Below the pieces are notes generated by a model that saw only the letters and a program-made list of their open reading frames with translations, did no database searches and had not been told where the DNA came from. Shown piece after piece: positions 2,442 to 21,836 of a stretch of 64,000 bases of DNA. Numbering within the stretch: position 1 is the first letter of the stretch; every line of letters starts with the position of its first letter. The translations under genes and the position numbers were made by a program. This DNA comes from Methylobacillus methanolivorans (lineage in GTDB: Bacteria > Pseudomonadota > Gammaproteobacteria > Burkholderiales > Methylophilaceae): positions 131,667 to 195,666 of the forward strand of contig NZ_JAJAVF010000005.1 of NCBI RefSeq assembly GCF_020531845.1, written 5' to 3'.

Positions 2442-3760
2442 GCGTGCACCTCGGCCACCGCGGTCCTGTACTCTGCCGTACGCTCGAAATCACGGGTGTA
2501 GAAACGCTTGGCCACCAGCAATACTGTCGCTGCCAGTACGCTGCAACTTGTCGTCATGAACAACAAGGCATGGGTCAAGCCATAGGCATCGGACAACAGG
2601 CCAGCCAGCCATGGCCCCGGCACCGAGCCAAGCAAGTGCGCAGTGACGATGCAGCACGTTGAGGAAAAGGCCCGCATCTGCGAGGGCACCAGTTCCTGCG
2701 TTACTGTCATGACCATGCTGATGATGCTGAAATTGACGAAGGTTGCCAGCATCATCAGGCCCAAACGAGTGCCCAAGCCTTCCACCACGCCGAATACCAG
2801 CAGGTAGATCAAGGCAGTGCTTAAAAAAGCAGTGATGGCAAAAGTGAATTTGCTGGCTGGCCTGATCTGGGCCCGGCGATCAAGAAACCAACCGCCCACC
2901 GGGCCGGCAATCGCGCTGCACAAAATGATGGCGCTGCTGATATAAGCCGCCTGCTGCAAGGGCACGCCATGCACGCGGTTAAAGAAAGTCGGCATAAAAT
3001 ATTGCAGGGGAATCGCGGACAAGGTCATGGCGGACAAGGCCAGGAACATGATCCACAGCGAAGGTCGATGCAGTACCAGGCGCAGTTTCGCCCAGGCATC
3101 GTGCAGCGAAAATACGCGAGCTGCCGGCACTGCCTGCCCGGTATGCAATGATTGGGTGCTGTTCTTGAAATCCTTGCTGAAATACACCAGCCACGCCACC
3201 AGCAGGCCCGGCAACGCCAGCAAGCCCAGGGCATAGCGCCAGCCGAAATGACTGGCGATGAAGCCGCCGAGAATCAAGCCGGACAAAGTGCCGACCGACT
3301 GGCTGGATAACAGTATGCCCGTGGCCAGTTGCTTGCGCCGGAACGGGAAGGCCGAGGACAACCAGGCCAGGGCGGCAGGCAGATAACCTGCCTCGCCCAC
3401 GCCCACCAGCGCTCGCGTTACCAGCAAGTGCGGGAAGCTGACGACAAATGCGCCTGCGCCGGAAGCCAGCGACCACAGCCCGCCCATCAACCCCGCGGTT
3501 TTGGTACGGCTCCAGTTATCGATGAGGAAGCTGGCAGGAAAGGCGAACAGCACCATGCACATGAACAATGCCGAGCCCAGCATGCCAGATTGCGCATCGC
3601 TCAATTGCCAGGTTGCCTTGATTTGCGGAAGCACCGCTGCGATCACCATCCGATCGGCAAAATCGAAGATCATCAGCAGGCAGAACAGGGAAAAGATACG
3701 CAGGGTCTTGCTGCGACCTAACAGGTAGTCGTCTTGCGGCGAAGGTAGGCTTGTGCTCAT
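2438..3760 (-). CDS. MFS transporter
   Basis: This 440-residue protein has about twelve hydrophobic segments and major facilitator features: an N-terminal FADRMVIAAVLPQI helix, and GVGEAGYLPAALAWLSSAFP in the middle of the N half, as in organic-acid or aromatic-acid type MFS carriers. It lies in the inner membrane. The gene sits 27 bp after the amidohydrolase gene and overlaps the maturase start by four bases, so it belongs to the same leftward unit as the sulfatase. Import of the substrate or export of a product are both possible. The ribosome site before the ATG is weak. Substrate unknown. Confidence 0.88.
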   Translation of the reverse strand: MSTSLPSPQDDYLLGRSKTLRIFSLFCLLMIFDFADRMVIAAVLPQIKATWQLSDAQSGMLGSALFMCMVLFAFPASFLIDNWSRTKTAGLMGGLWSLASGAGAFVVSFPHLLVTRALVGVGEAGYLPAALAWLSSAFPFRRKQLATGILLSSQSVGTLSGLILGGFIASHFGWRYALGLLALPGLLVAWLVYFSKDFKNSTQSLHTGQAVPAARVFSLHDAWAKLRLVLHRPSLWIMFLALSAMTLSAIPLQYFMPTFFNRVHGVPLQQAAYISSAIILCSAIAGPVGGWFLDRRAQIRPASKFTFAITAFLSTALIYLLVFGVVEGLGTRLGLMMLATFVNFSIISMVMTVTQELVPSQMRAFSSTCCIVTAHLLGSVPGPWLAGLLSDAYGLTHALLFMTTSCSVLAATVLLVAKRFYTRDFERTAEYRTAVAEVHA

Positions 3761-11506: not shown

Positions 11507-12082
11507 CTAGCGCTGCTTGTTCCAGGTGCGGCCCTCATCGTCAGACATCATTTGATGCAATAATGAAGAGCCATCATTGCGAATCTCCAGCCAATTGAGG
11601 TTGACCTGTGTATTGAGCGATGTCAGCTCGATATAACTGACATCATCGGTGGACATACGCTTGGGCGGTGAGGATACCCAGGCCGCACCATCCATGCGTG
11701 CGTAATACACCCCCTTATTCATACGCATCCAGACCAAGTGCCAACCCCATTGCCCGCCCTTGACGATGGCGAGCAAAGGAAAGTGGCAACCCAGACTGCG
11801 ACTACCGCCATAGGTCACGCGACGAATCCCTTGCAGGCGGCCCTCGAGTGAGGTCGCCATCACCAAGTCACGCGTACCGTCATTAAATGTGTGTTGCCAG
11901 AAAAATACCGGCTGATCGTTGCTGTCTCGCGTAGCGGCCACCCGGCAATTGCTAGGGATACGTTCTGCCAACTGGCGTAGCTTGATATCGTCCTCCTGAT
12001 TGACGACATCGCGACCAACTTCGGCCGCCAGAGCTGAGCAACTGAGTAATACCCCGATAATTCCAATAATCTGTTGTTTCAT
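11507..12082 (-). CDS. Small exported protein with one Asp-box, function unknown
   Basis: The 191-residue product opens with a clear signal peptide (MKQQIIGIIGVLLSCSALAA) and so is probably periplasmic or secreted. Its C-terminus contains SDDEGRTWNKQR, a good Asp-box (SxDxGxTW) as found in sialidase-like beta-propellers, and the segments FWQHTFNDGTRDLVMA and GVYYARMDGAAW look like propeller blades. At this length only two or three blades could fit, so it is not a whole sialidase; it may be an isolated module or a binding protein. It shares no operon: clpB lies downstream and a divergent TonB receptor gene starts 327 bp away. A RegA-like sequence lies 43 bp upstream of the start. Confidence 0.7.
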   Translation of the reverse strand: MKQQIIGIIGVLLSCSALAAEVGRDVVNQEDDIKLRQLAERIPSNCRVAATRDSNDQPVFFWQHTFNDGTRDLVMATSLEGRLQGIRRVTYGGSRSLGCHFPLLAIVKGGQWGWHLVWMRMNKGVYYARMDGAAWVSSPPKRMSTDDVSYIELTSLNTQVNLNWLEIRNDGSSLLHQMMSDDEGRTWNKQR

Positions 12083-12409
12083 GTTTCATTGACTCATGTA
12101 GAGCATGACGCAAATGGTATAGGTGCGACAATCTGCCGCACGCTTAGCAAATCGTTTTGTTGTTATTATCCGCGCCTGGTTGCTGGTAGGCAAAAAAACA
12201 CAAAGAACTCATTGGCACAGCTTTTATAGAGATGAATACACACGCTGACCATCTCTACCTATGCAACTGACAAGACATTACCCGACCAGCTTTAAACCAG
12301 ACGGCAAGTATATGCTTTTCTTGCGTAAACCGGCAGGCTTCATGGTAGTTGCCTCATGACCAACATATGCAATATCGTTTATAAAATTAGCCGCATCAGG
12401 AGCATCTTC
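12083..12409. other. Intergenic region between divergent genes
   Basis: This 327-bp gap separates the Asp-box protein (leftward) from the second TonB receptor (rightward). It contains GCGAC-N5-GCCGC at 12125-12139, which fits the RegA/PrrA consensus GCGRC-N5-GNCGC, and an 8-bp stem TAGAGATG/CATCTCTA at 12227-12257 with a long loop. No riboswitch core, tRNA or further gene was recognised. Confidence 0.5.
12125..12139. promoter_or_regulatory. RegA-like binding site, weak candidate
   Basis: GCGAC AATCT GCCGC matches GCGRC-N5-GNCGC. About one match to this degenerate motif is expected by chance in a window this size, so alone it is weak. It gains some weight from lying 43 bp upstream of a gene start in the same neighbourhood as regBA. 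Confidence 0.25.
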
Positions 12410-14461
12410 ATGCCTTATCGTTACCGCGCTATTGTGCTGTTGATCATGACAGCCTGTAGCCAGCGAGCTGTTGCTGACCATGTCGCAACAACAGCAAATG
12501 AGCAAGATTCGACCATGACAATTGGTGGCATCGTTGTCACTGGCAACCGCTCCTCCAGCCTACCTGCACGTAGCATCCTTTCCTCCGTGGACGTGATTGG
12601 CAAGGACGCTATTGAAAACCAGACCGTACAAAATAGTTGGCAGCTGTTCTCCCGCGCACCTGGCGTTATGCTGACCGAGTACCGCATGGGGACCTCGACA
12701 GGAAAATTTTCATTCCGTGGCTTCAATGGCGAGGGCGAGATCAATGCCGTTAAGTTATTGATCGACGGCATCCCCAGCAACAGCAACGATGGCAACATGC
12801 CGTACCTCGACATGATCATGCCACTTGATATCGAGGCTATCGAAGTAGTGCGTGGTACCAATGATCCACGTTACGGCCTGCATAACATTGCTGGCAATGC
12901 CAATGTTGTGACCCGTATCGGCGGCAACTATACGACAGCACGTGCCAGCTATGGCAGCTTCAACACACGTGAATTGCAAACAGCCATGGGCATTGAGAAA
13001 GACGGCTTCAGCCAGAATTATTTTGCCGCAGTGCAGGAATACGATGGTTATCGCGCCCACTCTGATTCCCGCAAGCACTCAGTAGCTGGCAAATGGTTTT
13101 ACGACTCCAGTGACGGGCGCTTGCGCACCGGCTTGATCGCCCGTCATTACCGACAGGATGCACAGGAGGCTGGCTACCTCACCTACGATCAGGCACGCGC
13201 CCACCCCCGTCAATCCATGCCGCACAACAGCACAGATGGTGGCGAACGTGAGCTCAACCAGCTCAGCCTGCACCTTGACTGGAGCATCAATGAGCGCTGG
13301 TTTCTTTCCAACAAGGCCTACCTCAACACCATGGATGATCAGCGCTGGGTGCGCTTTTCCATCATGAACCCCAATCAGCAGGAGCGTCTACTCAGGGAAA
13401 ACCATACCGGGCTACTCTCCACCCTGACGTGGAGACCAAATGTCGAGCATCTGGGCCTGCATAGCCTAGCGATTGAAAGTGGCCTGAGTGCCGAATGGCA
13501 GAACAACGAGAACTACCGATACACGACGAATGCACGTCAGCGACTCAGCGCAACACGCAACCAGCACTATGCCTTCGATACCTATGGTGTTTACTTGCAA
13601 GCCGTCATCCGCCCGACAGCGAAGCTCAAGATCGTGCCCGCCTATCGTGTAGATCGCGTAGAGGGGGATTTCAGAAATATCCTCACGGGCACCACGGCAG
13701 ATATCCAAGACTATGGCGCGATCCGCCAACCCAAGCTCAGCGCGGTATATAACTTTTCAGAACATTACAGCGCCTATGGTAATTGGGGGCGCAGCTTCCA
13801 GGTGGGCATAGGGGCAGCGACTTATAAAACCAACCCGCTCGCCCCCGACCTCAAGCCCTCGATCAATGAGGGTTGGGAACTGGGCCTGAAGTTCCAGCCG
13901 ACTAATTGGATAGATGGACGCATTGCCGCCTGGGAACAAAAAGCCAACAATGAAGCTCGCCGCATCTTGGGCAGCGCCAGCAACGACTCTGAAAACATCG
14001 GCGAGACCTTGCGGCAAGGGATAGATTTCCAGGCTAACCTGCGTCCAACTGAAAAACTGGATATTTGGGCCAATCTCTCGGTGCAACGCTCCGAGATCAC
14101 CAAGCCCGGGAATACCGAGCTTTCCAACAAAGGGAACGAGATTGATCATGTGCCCCGGCAGATTTATGGCCTGGGCGCAGATTACCGCCTATTGTCCACG
14201 CTCAAGCTTTCAGCCTGGGGCAATGGCCAAGGCGACTATTATCTTGAGCGTTCCAACACTTGGGGAAAATATGGCGGTTATTTCCTGCTCAACCTCAGCG
14301 CAGCCTGGCAAGTGCAGAAAAACATCAGCCTGGAGTTGCAAGTACGTAATCTAATGGATCGTTACTATGAATATGCATATTACGATACTGAGTACGCGCA
14401 AACCCTGCACTCTCCTGGCGAAGGTCGCGGCGTATATGCCTCGCTCCGGTTGGATATCTGA
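12410..14461 (+). CDS. TonB-dependent outer membrane receptor
   Basis: The ATG at 12410 follows AGGAG at good spacing and opens a signal peptide (MPYRYRAIVLLIMTACSQRA). The 683-residue product has the plug segment GIVVTGNRSSSLP, IEVVRGTNDPRYGLHNIAG near residue 140, and a barrel ending in the outer-membrane pattern YASLRLDI. It is an outer-membrane receptor powered by TonB, of the siderophore or organometal type judging by the plug. The ligand cannot be told: no ABC importer, TonB-ExbBD or biosynthesis gene adjoins it, no convincing Fur box was found by eye, and no cobalamin or TPP riboswitch core precedes it. It is unlike the receptor at 5384-7678 in detail. Confidence 0.92.
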   Translation: MPYRYRAIVLLIMTACSQRAVADHVATTANEQDSTMTIGGIVVTGNRSSSLPARSILSSVDVIGKDAIENQTVQNSWQLFSRAPGVMLTEYRMGTSTGKFSFRGFNGEGEINAVKLLIDGIPSNSNDGNMPYLDMIMPLDIEAIEVVRGTNDPRYGLHNIAGNANVVTRIGGNYTTARASYGSFNTRELQTAMGIEKDGFSQNYFAAVQEYDGYRAHSDSRKHSVAGKWFYDSSDGRLRTGLIARHYRQDAQEAGYLTYDQARAHPRQSMPHNSTDGGERELNQLSLHLDWSINERWFLSNKAYLNTMDDQRWVRFSIMNPNQQERLLRENHTGLLSTLTWRPNVEHLGLHSLAIESGLSAEWQNNENYRYTTNARQRLSATRNQHYAFDTYGVYLQAVIRPTAKLKIVPAYRVDRVEGDFRNILTGTTADIQDYGAIRQPKLSAVYNFSEHYSAYGNWGRSFQVGIGAATYKTNPLAPDLKPSINEGWELGLKFQPTNWIDGRIAAWEQKANNEARRILGSASNDSENIGETLRQGIDFQANLRPTEKLDIWANLSVQRSEITKPGNTELSNKGNEIDHVPRQIYGLGADYRLLSTLKLSAWGNGQGDYYLERSNTWGKYGGYFLLNLSAAWQVQKNISLELQVRNLMDRYYEYAYYDTEYAQTLHSPGEGRGVYASLRLDI

Positions 14462-14525
14462 CAGCGATAGCTGCTCATCAACCTCAAAGGGATAGATGGC
14501 AACTTCACTAGGATTAAAAACAAAG

Positions 14526-14556
14526 AAAAAGGCTGGGTACCAGCAAGTACCCAGCC
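14526..14556 (-). terminator. Orphan leftward intrinsic terminator
   Basis: GGCTGGGTAC and GTACCCAGCC form a perfect 10-bp stem with loop TTGCTG on the minus strand, followed by TTTTTC and more T. On the plus strand it is followed by CCTGAAAAAA, so it does not serve the TonB receptor gene. No leftward protein gene lies to its right for about 9 kb. Confidence 0.85.
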
Positions 14557-14603
14557 CCTGAAAAAAGTCCATAGACCTTTAGATGAGGAATCCTTAATCG
14601 GAT
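14526..14603 (-). ncRNA. Candidate small RNA, leftward, about 78 nt
   Basis: Between the TonB receptor and regB a leftward sigma-70-like promoter (14610-14638) is followed about 80 nt later by a strong leftward intrinsic terminator (14526-14556). The predicted start is near 14603. The transcript would hold a small CCTTA/TAAGG hairpin at its 5' end, a single-stranded ATTCCTCATC stretch that could pair with a Shine-Dalgarno sequence, a weak AGGTC/GACTT hairpin and the terminator stem. No convincing short reading frame with a ribosome site is seen in it. This is a prediction from sequence only; no RNA family was recognised. Confidence 0.45.
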
Positions 14604-14609
14604 AAGGGA

Positions 14610-14638
14610 AATATAAATGCTGTCCTCCAGCCTGTGAA
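14610..14638 (-). promoter_or_regulatory. Sigma-70-like promoter of candidate small RNA
   Basis: On the minus strand TTCACA (14638-14633, five of six matches to TTGACA) and TATATT (14615-14610, five of six matches to TATAAT) are separated by exactly 17 bases. Nothing coding lies downstream before the orphan terminator. Confidence 0.5.
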
Positions 14639-14639
14639 T

Positions 14640-14654
14640 GCGACACGTTGTCGC
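14640..14654. promoter_or_regulatory. RegA/PrrA-type box, perfect palindrome
   Basis: GCGAC ACGTT GTCGC matches the RegA/PrrA/ActR consensus GCGRC-N5-GNCGC at every fixed position and is palindromic in its half-sites. It lies about 95 bp upstream of regB and immediately upstream of the -35 of the leftward small-RNA promoter, centred near -44 of its predicted start, where class II activators bind. Confidence 0.55.
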
Positions 14655-14696: not shown

Positions 14697-14711
14697 GTGA
14701 CATTTTGTCAC
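14697..14711. promoter_or_regulatory. GTGAC-N5-GTCAC palindrome before regB
   Basis: GTGAC ATTTT GTCAC has the same 5-5-5 architecture as the RegA box 42 bp to the left and lies 37 bp before the regB start codon, overlapping the likely regB promoter. It could be a variant RegA site for autoregulation or a site for another dimeric regulator. Confidence 0.4.
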
Positions 14712-14748: not shown

Positions 14749-16053
14749 ATGTCTTCCCTTGCCTTTACCACTAATCTGCGTCGGTTGTTGTGGCTACGTG
14801 TAGTCATGATGACCGCGCTGGTTATGGCTAGTATTGTCGCCACTCAGGTATTTGATATCGTGCTCCCCACGCTCAAGGTCGTCAGCGCTATTAGCTTGAT
14901 GCTGGTCGTCAACCTCATCAGTTGGTTGAGACTGTGGCGCCAGGCCCGCATCCATGAACTGGAGTTGCTGACGCAGCTATTGCTCGACATCACCCTGCTC
15001 ACATGGCTCTTTTACGCCACGGGAGGCTATAGCAACCCTTTTGTCTGGATGTACTTACTACCTCTTTCAGTTGCCGCCGTGGCACTCCCTTGGCGTTACA
15101 CTTGGCTGATTGCCGCACTAGTCATCACAGCTTATAGCTTGCTCATGTTCTGGTACGAACCGTTGACCATCCACAGCCATATGCAGCATGGCGCGCCATA
15201 TCACGAGCATGATGAAGGCTTCAGCCTGCATTTGCTCGGCATGTGGGGGGGCTTTGTCGTCAGTGCCATCGTCATTGCGTTTTTCGTCGAGCGCATGGGG
15301 CGCAACCTGAGGGAATATGACAAACTACTTGCAGAATCACGGGAAAAAGTACTCGCCAGCGAGCGCATGCTAGCGCTTGGCACACTAGCAACAGGGGCCG
15401 CTCACGAGCTAGGCACGCCACTTTCCACCATGGCAGTCCTTACTCAGGAGTTAGTGCAGGAGCATCAGCACGATAAGGAGCTGACAAGCTCACTCACGCT
15501 GTTGCGCAAGCAAGTTGACCGCTGCAAGGAAATACTTTCCTCCATTACTGCATCGGCAGGCATGATACGTTCCGATGCTAGCAGCGCAATGCCTGCGCAT
15601 GCATTTATCCAATACGTCGCAGAGCGCTGGCAAGATATGCGTCCCGCCACCCCGCTCGCGATGGATATACAGCTCCCGTCACCTTCTCCCGTCATCGTCG
15701 CCGACCTGGCACTAGGCCAGGCTATCAGCAACTTGATCAATAATGCAGCCGATGCCTCGCCAGAGGGAATTAGCCTGGTGGCCAAGATAGCCCAAGACAA
15801 CCTGGTGATTGATATTGATGACCAAGGGCAATTCCCTGGCGCGGACCACCCTGCCTTGCTGGGAAAACCCTTCAACAGCAGCAAGCAAGCCGCGGGCGGA
15901 TTAGGGCTGGGTATCTTTCTGGCCAAGTCCGTGCTGGAAAAATTTGATGGCGAAGTCACCTTTACCCCGCGGGAGACGCAAGGCACGCTTACCCAAATAC
16001 GTATCCCACTGAAGAAACTACAATTAAAACTGCCATCGACACCAGCACCATGA
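14749..16053 (+). CDS. regB: Redox sensor histidine kinase, RegB/PrrB family
   Basis: The 434-residue protein has six N-terminal membrane segments (about 13-185) including GGYSNPF at 92-98, the conserved quinone-site motif of RegB, then an H-box AAHELGTPLS with His219, a Cys at 259 in the DRCKEIL context matching the redox-active Cys of RegB, and an ATPase domain with NLINNAADAS and GLGLGIFLAK. RegB senses the quinone pool and phosphorylates RegA. Odd feature: the loop before the last membrane helix is rich in His (six between 142 and 161). The stop overlaps the regA start by four bases, so the pair is coupled. Palindromes upstream suggest autoregulation. Confidence 0.93.
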   Translation: MSSLAFTTNLRRLLWLRVVMMTALVMASIVATQVFDIVLPTLKVVSAISLMLVVNLISWLRLWRQARIHELELLTQLLLDITLLTWLFYATGGYSNPFVWMYLLPLSVAAVALPWRYTWLIAALVITAYSLLMFWYEPLTIHSHMQHGAPYHEHDEGFSLHLLGMWGGFVVSAIVIAFFVERMGRNLREYDKLLAESREKVLASERMLALGTLATGAAHELGTPLSTMAVLTQELVQEHQHDKELTSSLTLLRKQVDRCKEILSSITASAGMIRSDASSAMPAHAFIQYVAERWQDMRPATPLAMDIQLPSPSPVIVADLALGQAISNLINNAADASPEGISLVAKIAQDNLVIDIDDQGQFPGADHPALLGKPFNSSKQAAGGLGLGIFLAKSVLEKFDGEVTFTPRETQGTLTQIRIPLKKLQLKLPSTPAP

Positions 16054-16601
16054 CACAAGCACCCTTACCTGACCAACCGACGATGCTACTGGTGGACGAT
16101 GATGAAGTCTTTACCCAGGTGCTGGAAAAAGCCATGCATAAACGCGGCTTTCTTGTGCAAGTCGCCCACAATGTTGCAGAAGCCATCTGCATGTATGTGG
16201 ACGAAAGTCCCGAATATGCCGTGATTGACTTGCGCATGCCCGGAGACTCCGGGCTGGCATTGGTCAAACACCTGCATCAACTGGATAACCAGACGCGCAT
16301 CGTAGTACTCACTGGTTATGCCAGCATTGCCACCGCCGTAGAGGCCGTCAAGCTGGGAGCCACGCACTATCTTGCAAAGCCTGCAGATGCCGACCAGATT
16401 TTAGCCGCTTTCGAGCGCGTCGAAGGAGACATCAACGCCCCAGTGCCCAGCAACGCGCTTTCCGTCAATCGTATGGAGTGGGAACACATCCAGCGCGTGC
16501 TACAAGAACACGATGGCAATATCTCTGCCACGGCGCGTAGCCTGAATATGCACAGGCGCACACTGCAACGGAAACTGAACAAGCATCCTGCCAAGAAGTA
16601 A
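16050..16601 (+). CDS. regA: Response regulator, RegA/PrrA/ActR family
   Basis: The 183-residue protein has a receiver domain with the acidic triad at Asp16-Asp18, phospho-acceptor Asp60 (YAVIDLRMPGDSG) and Lys in HYLAKPAD, then a Fis-type helix-turn-helix ending in NMHRRTLQRKLNKH, the hallmark recognition helix of RegA-type regulators. Length is normal. It overlaps regB by four bases. In related bacteria it controls photosynthesis, carbon fixation, respiration and nitrogen genes in response to redox state; here likely targets include its own promoter, the candidate small RNA and perhaps ppsA. Confidence 0.95.
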   Translation: MTQAPLPDQPTMLLVDDDEVFTQVLEKAMHKRGFLVQVAHNVAEAICMYVDESPEYAVIDLRMPGDSGLALVKHLHQLDNQTRIVVLTGYASIATAVEAVKLGATHYLAKPADADQILAAFERVEGDINAPVPSNALSVNRMEWEHIQRVLQEHDGNISATARSLNMHRRTLQRKLNKHPAKK

Positions 16602-20366: not shown

Positions 20367-21836
20367 ATGAGCACCTTGACCACGTCAGCAGGAGCCCCGG
20401 TTCCAGACGATAACAACAGCATTAGTGTTGGTCCACGCGGCCCTCTCACGTTCGATAACCACTACCTGTTCGAGAAGCTTGCCCATTTCAACCGTGAACG
20501 TATCCCCGAGCGTGTAGTTCATGCGCGTGGTACAGGCGCCTATGGCACATTCACACTAACCAAGAGTTTGAGTGATCGCACGATAGCGAGCTTTTTGCAG
20601 CAGGTAGGTGATAAAACCGAGGTATTCGTACGCTTCTCCACAGTAGGTGGTGGTCAGGACTCCAGTGACTTTGCCCGCGACCCCAGGGGATTTGCCATCA
20701 AGTTTTATACGCGCGAAGGCAATTTTGATCTCGTCGGCAATAACACCCCGGTGTTCTTCCTCAACGACCCAATCAAGTTCCCGGACTTTATTCACTCGCA
20801 GAAAAAAGACCCGCAAACCAACCTGCCCAATCCCGCTAACGCTTATGAATTCTGGGCCAACCACCCACAATCCTTGCACCAGATGACCATCCTCATGTCT
20901 GATCGCGGCATTCCTGCATCTTACCGCCACATGCATGGCTTTAGCTCGCATACACTCAGCTTCTGGAATGACAAGGGCGAACGCGTATGGGTCAAGTGGC
21001 ACATCAAGAGCAACCAAGGCATCAAGACCGTAACAGCAGATGAGGCGGCCAAGTTGCCCACACATGGCACACAACAAGACCTGGTGGAAGCGATTGCCAG
21101 GGGCGAATTCCCCTCTTGGACTGTCAAGGTGCAAATCATGACGGAAGCTGAGGCCCGCACTTATAAGATCAACCCGTTCGACCTCACCAAGGTCTGGCCG
21201 CATAGCGACTACCCCTTGATCGAGATTGGCCAACTTGAGTTGAACCGCAATGTCGACAACTACTTTGCCGAAACCGAACAATCGGCATTTGCGCCCAGCA
21301 ACCTGGTGCCAGGCATTGGTGCCTCGCCAGACAAAATGTTGCAGGCACGCTTGCTAGCCTACCAAGATGCACACCGCTACCGTGTTGGGGTCAATGCCAA
21401 CCAACTGCCCGTCAATGCCGCACGCTGCCCAGTACACCATTACCAACGTGACGGCGCCATGGCCGCAGGTTGCCCGGTGACAGGCCATGGTGCATCCGCC
21501 AACAGCCTTCACCAAACACCTAACTTCTATCCCAATGACAGAGCAGGCGTGTCGCCAGCCCCAGCCGCCCATTATGCTCAACCAGCCCTTCCCGTGCTGG
21601 AGGATGCATGGATTAGCTATCACGATCAATCGGATGAAGACTACTTCAGCCAGCCAGGTGCCTTGTTCCGCCTGATGGATGCAGAGCAAAAACAGCAATT
21701 GGTTAACAATATTGCCGCTGGGTTATCGCAGGCGAATGCCTCTATCCAGGAGCGTATCTTGGCGCAATTCCACCGGGCAGACCCAGCTTATGCATCAGGC
21801 GTGAAAGCTGCGCTGGAGGCCATCGCCAAGGCATAA
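20367..21836 (+). CDS. katA: Monofunctional heme catalase
   Basis: This small-subunit (clade 3 like) catalase of 489 residues converts hydrogen peroxide to water and oxygen. Distal His52 lies in RVVHARGTGAYG, the distal Asn in the VGNNTPVFF segment, and the proximal heme-ligand Tyr332 in RLLAYQDAHRYRVG. There is no signal peptide, so it is cytosolic. The start follows GGAGAAAG. A good sigma-70 promoter lies upstream and the gene stands alone. Methylotrophs produce peroxide and oxidants during growth, so a housekeeping detoxification role is likely. The Cys-containing ARCPVHHYQRDGAMAAGCPV segment after the heme domain is a small peculiarity of unknown meaning. Confidence 0.97.
   Translation: MSTLTTSAGAPVPDDNNSISVGPRGPLTFDNHYLFEKLAHFNRERIPERVVHARGTGAYGTFTLTKSLSDRTIASFLQQVGDKTEVFVRFSTVGGGQDSSDFARDPRGFAIKFYTREGNFDLVGNNTPVFFLNDPIKFPDFIHSQKKDPQTNLPNPANAYEFWANHPQSLHQMTILMSDRGIPASYRHMHGFSSHTLSFWNDKGERVWVKWHIKSNQGIKTVTADEAAKLPTHGTQQDLVEAIARGEFPSWTVKVQIMTEAEARTYKINPFDLTKVWPHSDYPLIEIGQLELNRNVDNYFAETEQSAFAPSNLVPGIGASPDKMLQARLLAYQDAHRYRVGVNANQLPVNAARCPVHHYQRDGAMAAGCPVTGHGASANSLHQTPNFYPNDRAGVSPAPAAHYAQPALPVLEDAWISYHDQSDEDYFSQPGALFRLMDAEQKQQLVNNIAAGLSQANASIQERILAQFHRADPAYASGVKAALEAIAKA

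Follow-up and report, generated by a model that had tools for sequence, protein, structure and literature searches.

Small RNAs under the control of a RegA-type regulator are already on record: according to excerpts of PMC8307010, PcrZ and PcrX of Rhodobacter sphaeroides are controlled by PrrA, a RegA orthologue, and belong to the oxygen response. A predicted RNA under RegA would thus be of a known kind. The DNA sites of these regulators are less sharply described; in the excerpted text of a PrrA ChIP-seq study the authors state that a strong consensus motif eluded them (PMC4263372). The terms 'sRNA' and 'small RNA' are absent from the main text of a study of betaproteobacterial RegAB (PMC8191878), and no paper on small RNAs in Methylobacillus or Methylophilaceae was found in the open-licence literature.

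The locus analysed here lies in a stretch of 64,000 nucleotides of Methylobacillus methanolivorans DNA (the window, to which the coordinates below refer unless a locus is named), in which a first-pass annotation had proposed a redox-controlled small RNA divergent from regBA. Comparison with relatives suggested that Methylobacillus probably carries, next to regBA, a RegA-activated, base-pairing and trans-acting small RNA of ~80 nt.

Promoter, palindrome and terminator upstream of regB

The palindrome, the -35/-10 pair with 17-bp spacing and the terminator of the first-pass annotation were all found where it had placed them, on the minus strand, between the gene of a TonB-dependent receptor (12356-14461, plus strand), which is the left neighbour of the RNA unit in the window, and regB (14749-16053, plus strand). 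The regB product is a sensor histidine kinase of the RegB/PrrB/ActS type and that of regA (16050-16601, plus strand) a response regulator of the RegA/PrrA/ActR type, as assigned with NCBIfam models; the best matches were the ActS/PrrB/RegB model (E 4e-71) and the ActR/PrrA/RegA model (E 5e-61), both under the curated cut-off. Plasmid records searched with the segment 14300-15000 gave no match.

The RegA/PrrA consensus is GCGRC-N5-GNCGC. The strict form GCGAC-N5-GTCGC had a single occurrence on the plus strand of the window, the palindrome GCGACACGTTGTCGC at 14640-14654 (mean of 30 dinucleotide shuffles 0.07), and the looser consensus occurred twice (shuffle mean 1.2). Read on the minus strand, the centre of the palindrome was computed to lie 44 bp before the predicted RNA start, which bears out the earlier placement of the box near -44. 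The RNA promoter therefore has, by this consensus, a RegA-type inverted repeat at the position of an activator. A strict RegA-type box, GCGACAATCTGCCGC, was also seen at 12125-12139, 43-57 nt before a leftward ORF (11507-12082) whose exported-looking product of 191 aa had no Pfam or NCBIfam match; a homologue of this ORF is present in L029 (307-879), and in L101 a box precedes a similar start.

The -35 region TTCACA (14633-14638, minus strand) abuts the box and is followed after 17 bp by the -10 hexamer TATATT (14610-14615, minus strand). The intrinsic terminator (14522-14556, minus strand) consists of a stem-loop (14531-14556) and a U-rich tail. By hexamers alone, promoter-like sites in the segment 12000-18000 were at chance level (5 vs 5.1 in shuffles), the RNA promoter being the best-scoring of them (10/12). 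Terminator-like sites numbered 7 (5.4 in shuffles), and that of the RNA had the longest stem (14 pairs). Since the promoter hexamers were at chance level, the statistics of a single genome could not decide, and it was the conservation in all six other Methylobacillus genomes that raised the observation above chance.

Conservation of the RNA unit in Methylobacillus

A search with RegB as query yielded 14 loci, five of them from Methylobacillus. In L001 and L004 the RNA unit was likewise located upstream of regB, and a covariance model (R1) was built from these two loci and the window. R1 found the unit in L002, L003 and L005. When run over the genus, it gave one strong match per genome in all six Methylobacillus genomes (E 3e-15 or better) and an extra match in G004 (E 0.05). 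R1 had the flaw that the DNA palindrome was modelled as paired RNA, and R2 was built without that pairing. The genomes G002, G003, G005 and G015 (loci L002, L003, L005 and L029) were outside the training of R1. The window sequence was present in all three models (R1, R2 and R3) and all seven sequences, i.e. the window and the six genomes, in R2 and R3; only the R1 matches in L002, L003, L005 and G015 are therefore independent, as the other sequences sat inside the models.

In all seven sequences the palindrome was kept with its centre at -44, the spacer was 17 bp, the -10 had the form TA...T, and the predicted +1 was the A of AUCC, which opens the 5' hairpin. The -35 retained TTC in every sequence; compared with TTGACA, it had five of the six bases in the window and between two and four in each of the six relatives, which keep only TTC. 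A promoter of its own and an intrinsic terminator were conserved together in 7/7 sequences. Loss of promoter, terminator and box in relatives would have told against the first-pass proposal, and all three were kept at fixed spacing in the six Methylobacillus genomes. A phylogenetic footprint emerged from the four sequences in which the unit is beside regB: the box, the -10, the 5' hairpin, the CCUCAUC core and the terminator persisted, and divergence had affected the promoter spacer as well as much of the DNA that separates the box from regB. When 150 family genomes were searched with a pattern derived from the seven sequences (box, -10 and ATCC), the six Methylobacillus genomes were the only ones to match.

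Predicted structure of the RNA

With its start derived from the -10 and its end from the terminator, the predicted RNA would have a length of ~78-82 nt (14522-14603, minus strand). It would begin with the 5' hairpin AUCC...GGAU (14590-14603), followed by the invariant CCUCAUC (14582-14588), which is predicted to be single-stranded in most folds and is the proposed pairing site. The middle hairpin, AAAGGUC-UAUG-GACUUUU (14563-14580), is the weakest helix, with 81% of cells paired (all three on the minus strand). Folding of the RNA 14605-14524 gave -32.4 kcal/mol (z -4.68), a value equalled by none of 200 shuffles. In the minimum-energy fold of the G015 RNA taken alone, part of the CCUCAUC core is paired and the 5' hairpin is lost.

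The four outer pairs of the 5' hairpin were invariant across the alignment, and covariation thus speaks neither for nor against their pairing. The terminator loop region, CUUGCUGG, was also invariant while the terminator stem varied. Pairs were counted in alignment A3, which was fitted to the structure of R1 and is hence biased towards it. There the stems were paired in 92.2% of cells, as against 86.9% in column shuffles and 34.5-51.9% with slid partners. Both sides had changed in 8 pairs (4.5 in shuffles; at least 8 in 10/500), and the covariation score of 0.286 (0.187 when shuffled) was reached by 0/500. These values indicated a conserved secondary structure with compensatory changes, in an alignment fitted to that structure. 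Comparison supports the putative RNA unit, its predicted structure and its promoter geometry; because shape, promoter and RegA-type site have been kept by evolution, the product is probably a regulatory RNA made under RegA.

A small protein was rejected as the product. The frame opened by the ATG at 14572 of the window continues across the terminator, L004 lacks this ATG, and the RNA bodies of the sequences differ in length by indels whose sizes do not divide by three (all by eye). Rfam 15 gave no match in the window at the gathering threshold, the best sub-threshold score being 17.8 bits where 50 were needed.

Search outside the genus

The covariance search of relatives suggested by the first-pass annotation was thus successful throughout Methylobacillus, but it did not extend to the family: none of 181 other Methylophilaceae genomes gave a comparable score. 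The RNA-only model R3 matched 11 of 187 family genomes at E 0.05, namely the six Methylobacillus and five weak ones (E 0.016-0.031). Over the order, at E 0.001, it matched 2 of 399 genomes, both Methylobacillus; searches of more than 40 genomes were run under stricter filters, by which weak relatives may be lost. The best reading is that, among the genomes searched, the predicted RNA is restricted to Methylobacillus.

At E 0.1 the model R2 matched 43/187 family genomes, 37 of them outside Methylobacillus (best E 2e-5). Fourteen loci with weak R2 matches were re-examined, and in ten the alignment covered mainly the box and promoter part. L034, L037 and L038 had a terminator-like part besides box and promoter. 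Genes downstream of the sites found with R2, a model that includes the -10, resembled those of TonB receptors and other exported proteins (by eye).

Two side observations were made in these loci. In L034 and L038 (1501-1619; G181, G183) a strong terminator lies no more than ~50 nt beyond box and -10; it comes after an FMN reductase-like gene and has a Shine-Dalgarno-like stretch and an ATG at its stem. This element may be another short RNA linked to RegA, or else a leader. In L035, L040, L042, L047 and in L036, L052 the box-promoter module was seen, by eye, upstream of TonB-receptor-like genes or of a gene whose exported product has a CASCGCTLSSDW motif, a placement hinting at an outer-membrane RegA regulon.

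The extended box and RegA in Methylophilaceae

An extended box, TGCGACA-N3-TGTCGCATTC (one mismatch allowed), was modelled on Methylobacillus and found in 35 of 187 family genomes. Genomes with a RegA match of E 1.1e-34 or better were taken as RegA-positive (72 genomes); the other 15 of 87, with best matches near 1e-26, mostly to NtrC-like open frames of ~470-480 residues, were excluded as RegA. The box was present in 31/72 RegA-positive and 4/115 RegA-negative genomes (Fisher p 1.5e-11, kinship and incomplete assemblies ignored), and in 27/54 versus 1/43 when genomes of at least 2 Mb were considered. Kinship being ignored, site and regulator tend to occur in the same genomes. At this stringency 41 of the 72 RegA genomes had no box.

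The extended box had 57 listed sites; the loci examined came from 30 of the 35 genomes, with a single site taken per genome. These 30 loci contained 33 box readings, four of which were the RNA itself. Among the 29 others L110 and L118 were read both ways, and one was the reverse reading of the RNA's box in L106. In 19/29 of these other readings TA...T occurred exactly 24 nt after GTCGC (3 at the next-best offset). This is the RNA promoter's own spacing, and the extended-box pattern contained no -10 information. Co-occurrence of box and RegA, and the same geometry at other sites, lend indirect support to RegA control of the predicted RNA.

The RNA could be real and still be repressed by RegA, or another regulator could use the box. 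A protein bound beside the -35 could block polymerase, and the -35 of the window is a good one; with five of six bases matched, this promoter may need no activator here. Four box-positive genomes (G014, G061, G114 and G162) had no detected RegA, but in G014 regB is cut off at the contig end and regA may therefore be missing from the assembly. The co-occurrence in the family and the fact that 9/14 loci have strict boxes in the 420 nt before the regB match argue for RegA as the regulator, and the degenerate -35 of the six relatives points to activation. We therefore consider repression, or a different regulator, unlikely.

Gene neighbourhood of the RNA unit

The palindrome at 14640-14654 is also located 95-109 nt upstream of regB. 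It might be a mere regB operator serving autoregulation, in which case leftward promoter and terminator would be chance features; the strict boxes in 9/14 loci and the chance-level hexamers of the window would agree with this. However, in the window, L001 and L004 another box is closer to regB. That of the window, GTGACATTTTGTCAC (14697-14711, plus strand; 38-52 nt before regB), fits the relaxed consensus only and is probably regB's own box; those of L001 (-52) and L004 (-51) are strict. Moreover, regB and the RNA unit are separated in L002, L003 and L005 by a leftward cytochrome c gene (assigned by Pfam in L003 and by eye, from a CLACH motif, in L002 and L005), and the unit with its box is 484-602 nt away from regB. 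RNA body and terminator are conserved as well, and a mere operator is very improbable. Since a second box is nearer to regB, and box and promoter were kept in the three loci despite the intervening gene, the palindrome at 14640-14654 belongs, on comparative evidence, to the putative RNA unit.

The unit faces the TonB receptor gene in the window and a PepSY-type gene in L001-L005 (a Pfam assignment in L003, one by eye in the other loci); neither was seen in L029/G015 within the 1.5 kb examined. The PepSY-type gene follows the TonB receptor gene in L001-L005 and is absent from the window (12356-14522). RNA and gene end overlap in some of these loci, L003 among them, where the gene ends at 3386 and the RNA occupies 3372-3458. 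In L002, L003 and L005 transcription of the cytochrome c gene might also read through into the RNA.

Very improbable as well are a role of the terminator in insulating converging transcription and an origin of the RNA as cis-antisense RNA or as a piece of a neighbour's 3' UTR. The unit does face a gene read rightward in the window and L001-L005, overlaps the PepSY gene end in some and directly follows the leftward cytochrome c gene in three species, but the facing gene varies, 4/7 sequences have no leftward gene before the unit, and an insulator does not need a conserved box, -10, 5' hairpin and CCUCAUC.

Search for targets

The Hfq gene was present in all six Methylobacillus genomes, and CCUCAUC is complementary to the Shine-Dalgarno-like GAUGAGG. 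The pattern GATGAGGT-N(0-10)-ATG had 167 matches in the six genomes, of which 150 were listed. No conserved target was found among 30 loci and 40 stretches from the listed matches, mostly recurring strings. The only real gene start recognised by eye among the examined matches was that of rpoD. Its ribosome-binding site, GAUGAGGUCAAGC (L164-L169), has the full core complement in 2/6 Methylobacillus genomes and is altered in four, and for this reason rpoD was rejected as a conserved target. In the window GATGAGG occurred at 13 sites (9.6 expected), one of which is the RNA's own complement; in a mechanical test two of the sites, at 21039 (plus strand) and 57724 (minus strand), had an ORF start close by.

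Proposed mechanism and comparison with known systems

For a RegA-activated small RNA we infer the following course of transcription, RegA binding, activation and redox response, and likewise Hfq dependence, pairing site and targets. In its phosphorylated form RegA would bind the palindrome at -44, beside the -35, an element degenerate in the relatives; as a class II activator it would recruit RNA polymerase. Transcription would start near 14603 and end at the intrinsic terminator, giving an RNA in which CCUCAUC is exposed between the 5' and the middle hairpin and the terminator carries a U-tail. Hfq would hold this RNA, and CCUCAUC would most likely pair with ribosome-binding sites of target mRNAs, which would be repressed when RegA is active.

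The wider proposal has two parts: Methylobacillus would have added a post-transcriptional arm to RegB/RegA, an sRNA shutting off mRNAs through CCUCAUC, and Methylophilaceae would use a rigid class II RegA promoter (TGCGACA-N3-TGTCGCATTC, with TA...T exactly 24 nt after GTCGC). We give this combined proposal an even chance. It would provide methylotrophs with a candidate redox small RNA and Betaproteobacteria with a sharp RegA promoter signature, from which the RegA regulon could then be read in the sequence.

Like PcrZ and PcrX, the Methylobacillus RNA would be a small RNA under a RegA-type regulator, a control that is predicted here. As far as the excerpts of PMC8307010 describe them, PcrZ and PcrX differ in being also under AppA and FnrL and in being aimed at photosynthesis genes, and PcrX in being processed from a 3' UTR; the comparison made here is one of description. 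FnrS of Escherichia coli, in the excerpted account of PMC4263372, is similarly a small RNA made under a redox regulator and represses several mRNAs. Its regulator is FNR rather than RegA, and no Rfam family matched the Methylobacillus RNA. For the promoter, the closest parallels in the excerpted sources are fixR-nifA P2 of Bradyrhizobium and the PrrA regulon, where a RegA-family activator is likewise combined with an inverted repeat upstream of the promoter (PMC4064962, PMC4263372). The RegR element of fixR-nifA, as the excerpt of PMC4064962 gives it, is however near -67 and has differently spaced half-sites, whereas in Methylobacillus the site is at -44 with one rigid spacing. As far as these partial texts go, the predicted rigid -44 geometry thus differs from the loosely conserved and variably spaced PrrA and RegR sites (PMC4263372, PMC4064962).
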